In this document: positions 15,979-39,192 of the stretch, piece after piece
Numbering within the stretch: the stretch's first letter is position 1
Layout: each line of letters begins with the position of its first letter
From: Pelodictyon luteolum DSM 273
GTDB lineage: Bacteria; Bacteroidota; Chlorobiia; Chlorobiales; Chlorobiaceae
Length of the DNA: 64,000 nucleotides
Direction of reading: 5' to 3'
Assembly (NCBI RefSeq): GCF_000012485.1
Contig: NC_007512.1
Coordinates: 1,303,001 to 1,367,000 of the forward strand
Notes under the pieces: model-generated
Database searches by the model: none
Told to the model about the DNA's origin: nothing
Seen by the model: the letters and a program-made list of their open reading frames with translations, nothing else
Program-made: the position numbers and the translations under genes

Positions 15979-16398
15979 TCAGTACGGTGCATAACGGAGG
16001 CGCAGCGTGCAGCCCTCCCTATTACACTCGACGTCGACGATTTCAGCAATGCTGGATATAATATACATCCCTCTGCCGGAAGAACGCATAAGGAACTGCG
16101 GTTTGGTTGGATCTGCAAGGTCGCGAAGTGCGAATCCGCAGCCGCAGTCCGTCACCTCTACCCGGAGCACGGGGCCGTTGGCTTCGAGGGTGGCATCGAG
16201 TTGCACGGTAATCGAGAGTTCCTCATGCCCGCAGTTCCCGTGCTGCACAGCGTTGACGAACACCTCTTTGAGTGAGAGCTGAAGCTGGCGGCGAAAATCC
16301 CGGCTGTACCCCTCCCCCCGGGCAAACGACTCCACCCGCCCCCGAAGGGACTCGTAGGCATCCACGTTGCCGTGGAGGGTAAGCATGCAGTTTCCCAT
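15979..16398 (-). CDS. Anti-sigma regulatory factor-type ATPase (RsbW-like HATPase_c_2)
   Basis: A 139-residue single-domain GHKL ATPase. The N-box is LKEVFVNAVQHGN near residue 44, the G1 box is the VTDCGCGFAL stretch, and SSGRGMYIISSIAE forms the lid/G2 region. Such proteins phosphorylate or bind STAS-domain antagonists and hold sigma factors. No sigma or STAS gene is adjacent; a STAS protein lies at 38.6 kb and a sigma-like protein at 63.2 kb, but a link to either is only a guess. Confidence 0.85.
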   Translation of the reverse strand: MGNCMLTLHGNVDAYESLRGRVESFARGEGYSRDFRRQLQLSLKEVFVNAVQHGNCGHEELSITVQLDATLEANGPVLRVEVTDCGCGFALRDLADPTKPQFLMRSSGRGMYIISSIAEIVDVECNREGCTLRLRYAPY

Positions 16399-38411: not shown

Positions 38412-38453
38412 GAAGCACCACAAGGTGCGGCATTTTCAGCGCATAAAAAAAAT

Positions 38454-38482
38454 TCTTTGTGTGTGGATTTTTTGCCTATAAT
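38454..38482 (+). promoter_or_regulatory. Possible sigma-70-type promoter upstream of the STAS gene
   Basis: A TATAAT hexamer at 38477-38482 with a weak tctttg at 38454 gives 17-bp spacing, about 95 bp upstream of the STAS start codon in an AT-rich gap. Confidence 0.35.
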
Positions 38483-38577
38483 AATTCTGTGGGACAAGGA
38501 AGAGACCGGCTTTTTCCGGGAAAGTCTTAACAGGTTCTGCCCGTAATATCTTACAGGTTTTATCGTAGGAATTTACA

Positions 38578-39192
38578 ATGAAGCACTCAGTATCGAACCG
38601 CAAGGAACTGACCATTCTGAAAATAGAGGAAACCGTCTTTGATTTCCGGCACGGCACCTCGTACAAGAAAGCCGTAGAGGATCTCATAGAAAGCGGCAGC
38701 ACCAACCTCATCATCGACTTCAGCCATGTCAAGGCGATCGATTCATGCGGCATCAGCTCCATACTCCTCACCCATCAGCTTGCCAACCATGCCCACGGGC
38801 TCGCTATATTCGTCGCTCTCTGCCAACAGATCAAAGATCTTCTCAAACTCACCAACCTCGACAAGCAGCTCTATATATTCTCATCGATCAACGAGGTGGT
38901 GACGCTGGTCGAACCCGCCATGAAAACCCGGCGCTGCTCGCGCGCAAAATCTAAATCCGCAGCATACGACCACCCGGACGAAGTCGGTGACGAGCTGGAC
39001 CTGCTCCACGAGAACGACATTGACAGTGTGATCGATGAAGATGATATGGGCGTATCATCTTTCGATGATGATGAAGAAGAATTGACCGGCGATGACCGGG
39101 TTGAAGGCGAAGGGAGCAAGAAGAGAGGACGTCCGAAAAAAACCGCCGGACCCACGATCGGCAGAAACGGAAAGAAAAGCACACGGGCCTGA
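38578..39192 (+). CDS. STAS-domain protein with acidic C-terminal extension and AT-hook-like motif
   Basis: A 204-residue protein. The first about 113 residues form a STAS (anti-sigma-factor antagonist) domain, with VKAIDSCGISSILLTHQL placing the phosphorylatable serine at 56. After it comes an extension rich in Asp/Glu (about 132-180, including SFDDDEEEL) and then KKRGRPKK at 181-188, which matches the GRP core of AT-hook DNA-binding motifs, and a basic end. The combination of a STAS switch with a DNA-minor-groove peptide is unusual. An RsbW-type kinase gene lies at 16 kb but is not linked. Confidence 0.82.
   Translation: MKHSVSNRKELTILKIEETVFDFRHGTSYKKAVEDLIESGSTNLIIDFSHVKAIDSCGISSILLTHQLANHAHGLAIFVALCQQIKDLLKLTNLDKQLYIFSSINEVVTLVEPAMKTRRCSRAKSKSAAYDHPDEVGDELDLLHENDIDSVIDEDDMGVSSFDDDEEELTGDDRVEGEGSKKRGRPKKTAGPTIGRNGKKSTRA

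Follow-up and report, generated by a model that had tools for sequence, protein, structure and literature searches.

Partner-switching proteins are treated as soluble proteins that act by sequestering other proteins. SpoIIAA and RsbV have about 110 to 120 amino acids and no tail, and are encoded with their own kinase and sigma factor. The layout in which an acidic segment precedes an AT-hook is, apart from the protein described here, best known from the myxobacterial CarD, and DNA binding by a single AT-hook is usually weak. In CarD, the tail has its RGRP hooks after an acidic segment, binds AT-rich DNA and is needed for full activity of the protein (PMC4374960). The actinobacterial WhiB7 has one AT-hook at its C terminus, whose site of action is immediately upstream of -35 (PMC3905903). 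CapS is a repressor in which a STAS domain is joined to a winged helix, and its phosphorylation by CapK at the equivalent serine makes it leave DNA (PMC13373217). These three precedents render each half of a DNA-tethered phospho-switch plausible.

We analyzed a window of 64,000 nucleotides from Chlorobium (Pelodictyon) luteolum DSM 273 (contig NC_007512.1, positions 1,303,001 to 1,367,000). The genome is one contig of 2,364,842 bases, and Pelodictyon luteolum and Chlorobium species are its close relatives in the genome collection. The gene at 38578..39192 on the + strand is an open reading frame of 204 amino acids with an ATG start. The preliminary description had assigned to it a STAS domain, an acidic linker and an AT-hook-like KKRGRPKK motif, and all three were found where they had been placed. 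The STAS domain (amino acids 1-112; 38578..38913, + strand) was recognized by Pfam PF01740 over amino acids 10-106 with an E value of 3.2e-9 and 36.9 bits against a cut-off of 22.6. In the AlphaFold2 model the pLDDT exceeded 90 over residues 1-110, and the nearest solved folds found with Foldseek were the anti-sigma factor antagonists TM1442 (TM-score 0.88 by target length), SpoIIAA and RsbV. The curated anti-sigma antagonist model TIGR00377 gave 30.6 bits, below its cut-off of 53.45. The protein resembles SpoIIAA and RsbV in its fold, in the switch serine of a DSxG motif and in the RsbW-like kinases of its genome, but differs from them in having a tail.

The tail follows a conserved basic patch just after the STAS domain (amino acids 116-126; 38923..38955, + strand). 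The patch has the pattern K-x-K/R-R-x-x-R/K-x-K/R and includes K116, K/R118, R119, R122 and K124, with K116 and R119 invariant among 81 distinct sequences. The acidic variable linker that comes next (amino acids 127-178; 38956..39111, + strand) is predicted to be disordered, with a pLDDT of about 50. KKRGRPKK itself occupies amino acids 181-188 (39118..39141, + strand) and is followed by a variable basic C-terminal end; the tail has a charge of +8 to +10 versus a net charge of about -22 in the linker. The motif has a GRP core between basic residues, which is how an AT-hook is defined (PMC11354804). Above noise, STAS models alone matched the 204-amino-acid protein, in which we found neither the N-terminal RNA polymerase (RNAP)-interaction domain of CarD nor a Pfam winged helix-turn-helix; the tail is predicted to be disordered.

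With an acidic segment followed by RGRP in a C terminus that is predicted to be disordered (pLDDT of about 50), the protein has the HMGA-like tail layout of CarD, as judged from its charge and entropy profile. As in CarD of Myxococcus xanthus, an N-terminal protein-interaction domain precedes an acidic disordered segment and a basic RGRP AT-hook, and in both cases tail-less relatives are widespread (CdnL there, bare STAS proteins here) while the tail is limited to one lineage (PMC4374960). CarD, however, has an RNAP-binding CarD domain and four hooks, whereas the protein described here has a STAS domain, one hook and a phosphoserine site. It shares with WhiB7 a small size, a regulatory character and a single C-terminal AT-hook (PMC3905903), but WhiB7 has an Fe-S domain, binds SigA directly and has neither a STAS domain nor an acidic linker. 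With CapS it shares an N-terminal STAS domain with the same conserved serine and, as proposed here, a C-terminal DNA-binding part (PMC13373217). The DNA-binding part of CapS is a winged helix and its kinase is encoded beside it in immune operons, whereas the protein described here is the product of a core chromosomal gene and has a disordered AT-hook tail without a winged helix.

The gene was present in 95 of 98 Chlorobiales genomes and in all 74 of the high-quality ones, and is a core gene of the Chlorobiales. Lack of conservation of the C-terminal motif among orthologues had been named as grounds for abandoning the AT-hook proposal, and we found [KR]KRGRP kept in 82 of 83 Chlorobiaceae orthologues spanning two genera. 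Among the 81 distinct sequences, the mean Shannon entropy per site was 0.16 bit over the eight motif positions, compared with 0.58 bit in the STAS domain, 1.95 bit in the linker and 2.05 bit at the extreme C terminus. The R, G and P of the motif were each encoded by four to six different codons among the orthologues. The low entropy of the motif, together with its variable synonymous codons and drifting flanks, indicated purifying selection on the amino acids rather than on the DNA. The segment that leads from residue 113 up to the motif was 57 to 96 residues long, and thus the motif has been retained while its spacing varies.

In the C. luteolum genome, this gene has the single occurrence of the RGRP[K/R]K pattern. 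The motif was also the best match of the genome to Pfam AT_hook PF02178 in a long open frame, at 15.3 bits, below the curated cut-off of 17.4. A chance origin of the motif was ruled out by its 82/83 conservation, its codon variation and its uniqueness in the genome. Across 86 genomes of the family, KRGRPK-type patterns were by eye no commoner than a reversed-pattern control, which ruled out AT-hooks as a general habit of Chlorobiaceae genomes. In two orthologues that are close relatives of each other (L096 and L114) the motif is eroding, to KKRGRPNRSKK and KKSRRTSRSKK, with DSCG intact.

The orthologues in the Chlorobiales lie in a locus with the order SSF symporter, Maf-like, MiaA, STAS and NamZ-like genes. 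Since this locus, with its miaA, SSF and NamZ neighbours, is common across the order, the genes for tailed STAS proteins in it are orthologues. Throughout the Chlorobiales the linker is acidic and the tail is basic. In the sister families f2, f3 and f4, the STAS domain and acidic linker are followed by a Lys-rich, H1-like tail without GRP, and in family f5 a long acidic tail has a short basic end, PRKRK or RRR. The Lys-rich tails of f2 to f4 suggested that the capacity to bind polyanions probably predates the AT-hook, and the absence of the GRP core there suggested that positive charge alone may suffice for function.

The tail may instead bind a polyanion other than AT-rich DNA, most notably structured RNA or the ribosome, so that the STAS switch would act on RNA-bound partners. 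The Lys-rich tails without GRP are consistent with this, and RNA is bound both by the AT-hooks of HMGA1 and by the extended AT-hook (PMC11354804). The STAS gene also adjoins miaA in the Chlorobiales, and at one locus in the Bacteroidota its neighbour is a tRNase Z-like gene. However, the neighbours vary by group (ligA, miaA, SSF), and gene order therefore tells little, while in the Chlorobiaceae the GRP core is strict and flanked by basic residues, a minor-groove signature that goes beyond the needs of charge. We regard RNA as an unlikely ligand of the tail, and DNA as the likelier one.

The search for relatives of the tailed STAS protein covered the Chlorobiales and other Bacteroidota. In the rest of the phylum, 191 of 296 genomes gave a STAS homologue in a profile search, and the loci examined mostly encoded bare STAS proteins of about 110 to 125 amino acids, often in a cluster of the order ligA, DUF6913-like, STAS and SSF. 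One locus of another Bacteroidota family (L171:3001-3783) encodes a STAS protein of 260 amino acids whose long tail is acidic throughout and lacks a basic end. Comparison of these sequences suggested a stepwise build-up, in which a STAS domain would have gained first an acidic segment, then a basic tail and finally the AT-hook.

The predominance of bare STAS proteins among the other Bacteroidota orthologues examined, and the ordinary fold, would also fit a soluble anti-sigma factor antagonist of the ordinary kind with a functionless disordered tail. This view is strongly disfavoured, and in our judgement highly improbable, given a motif under purifying selection in 82 of 83 orthologues. Another view is that the basic end docks on the acidic linker of the same protein or on a partner and thereby gates access of the kinase to Ser56, with no nucleic-acid ligand. 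Such docking would make use of the opposite charges of linker and tail within one chain, and the long acidic tail with a short basic end (PRKRK) in f5 and the acidic tail alone at L171 point in the same direction. Yet the linker varies freely in sequence and in its length to the motif while the motif is fixed, and a fixed G and P would not be expected from pure charge pairing. We consider docking distinctly unlikely, and tethering to DNA remains the reading that we prefer.

STAS domains are also regulators of SulP and Mla transporters. An SSF gene lies directly 3' of the STAS gene, whether bare or tailed, at loci L052, L053, L159, L164, L168 and L173, and likewise directly after it at the sister-family loci L041, L043-L046, L048 and L051. 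This arrangement, which several sister genomes of the Chlorobiales share with Bacteroidota across the phylum, raised the possibility that the STAS protein ancestrally regulates the neighbouring sodium:solute symporter and that the tail serves localisation. In the Chlorobiaceae, however, the SSF gene is gone and a cyclopropane-fatty-acid-synthase-like gene follows the STAS gene, which persists together with its motif, and the intact phosphoserine site indicates kinase partners. Regulation of the symporter is thus very unlikely in our view, and a kinase-controlled switch is preferred. A mobile or phage origin of the gene was rejected, as we found no relative in viral contigs and no plasmid match, and gene order is conserved across the order.

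The proposed phosphoserine was borne out by alignment. Ser56, in the DSCG motif (codon at 38743..38745, + strand), aligned with the phosphoserine of SpoIIAA, Ser58. At this position 1TH8 has Ser, whereas 1TID, a crystal form of SpoIIAA with Ser58 changed to Ala (PMC13373217), has Ala. The Ala at the first position in 1TID ruled out the second Ser of DSSG, which is Cys in this protein, as the switch serine. The Ser56 column is nearly invariant in the orthologue alignment, which makes this residue the candidate phosphoacceptor. Some Chlorobium genomes contain a second copy of the gene, and these copies form a paralogue clade of 11 members (L055-L057 and L123-L130) with a support of 100. DSxG was lost in all 11 (DPTV, DATV, DASV or DSTV), and RGRP was kept in 2 of them. 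The loss of DSxG together with the decay of RGRP fits the idea that hook and switch may be parts of one function, although the joint loss belongs to one clade and counts as one independent pair, so the coupling is without statistical support.

The C. luteolum genome encodes four strong stand-alone HATPase_c_2 proteins, and its STAS set comprises five small proteins and two in longer frames of 510 and 599 amino acids. Three of the four kinases adjoin STAS genes, near SpoIIE phosphatase genes. The fourth, an RsbW/SpoIIAB-like kinase at 15979..16398 on the - strand (HATPase_c_2, E value of 8.7e-18), keeps its ATP-binding boxes, ExxxNAxxHG (N-box) and DxGxGF, and is the only one of the four without a STAS gene beside it. 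Since the other three kinases have STAS proteins of their own, this kinase and the tailed STAS gene are left as two orphans, and by elimination only the kinase is the best candidate for the partner of the protein. Of the 98 Chlorobiales genomes, 88 contained it; the two genes are about 22 kb apart here and about 15 to 23 kb apart, on the same contig, in many Chlorobiaceae. No kinase match at an E value of 1e-10 was found in G085, G012 and G097, three near-complete genomes in which the tailed STAS gene is present, and no kinase or sigma gene adjoins the tailed STAS gene. The conserved DSxG and the leftover orphan kinase indirectly support a partner-switching role. The C. luteolum genome also contains two apparently duplicated partner-switching modules (contig positions 976961-984747 and 1182724-1190514), both of which have SpoIIE phosphatase, STAS and HATPase_c_2 genes with the same spacing.

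A candidate target of the hook, in the putative promoter region of the gene itself, is the AT-rich stretch at 38441..38490 (+ strand), which contains A8, T6 and TATAATAATT and lies about 90 to 140 bp upstream of the start codon. It has 74% A+T in a window of 57.7% G+C and is one of six separate places in the window that are this AT-rich over 50 bases. Some orthologues have similar upstream A/T tracts. Since promoters are often AT-rich, the stretch remains a candidate target of putative function, and a promoter scan upstream of the gene gave a match no better than those in shuffled sequences.

We consider it just probable that the protein is a STAS phospho-switch tethered to DNA by an HMGA-like tail. 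The sequences document the architecture, the conservation of the motif and the selection on it, the conserved Ser56, the predicted fold and disorder and the evolutionary order; binding to DNA, the choice of kinase, the way in which the switch turns and its output are proposals. An ancestral Bacteroidota STAS protein of the anti-sigma-antagonist type would have gained an HMGA-like, CarD-like tail, acidic and disordered at first and then basic with an RGRP AT-hook. The AT-hook, aided by the basic patch at amino acids 116-126, would hold the protein on AT-rich DNA, for instance at tracts upstream of promoters or on the nucleoid. The STAS domain would be the switch, binding a GHKL kinase, for which the orphan at 15979..16398 is the best candidate, and being phosphorylated by it at Ser56. 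Phosphorylation may alter the choice of partner or the retention of the complex on DNA, so that the STAS domain would swap partners while tethered or be released.

The DNA-tethered reading offered in the preliminary description is thus plausible and partly supported. Its statement that the combination is not known as described holds for the fusion of STAS domain and AT-hook in the literature searched, but a STAS domain on a DNA-binding part, in CapS, and the tail, in CarD, are each known. We found no description of this protein in the open-licence literature, which is weak evidence of novelty. A putative STAS switch with an HMGA-like tail is fixed in one bacterial family, the Chlorobiaceae. 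Together, orthologues with a bare STAS domain, an acidic tail, a Lys-rich tail or an AT-hook provide a ready series from which the contribution of the tail could be worked out. If the proposal is true, a lineage-wide core gene would put a phosphoserine switch on the chromosome, and the tail would be the second bacterial tail of the acidic-plus-AT-hook (HMGA-like) kind, evolved on an unrelated domain. We suggest tentatively that green sulfur bacteria may universally have a regulator that brings a SpoIIAA-type switch to AT-rich DNA through a tail that arose independently of CarD, perhaps a nucleoid or promoter factor controlled by phosphorylation; partners would then be switched on the chromosome itself. 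Signalling in green sulfur bacteria has been little studied, and the gene offers a defined point of entry to it.
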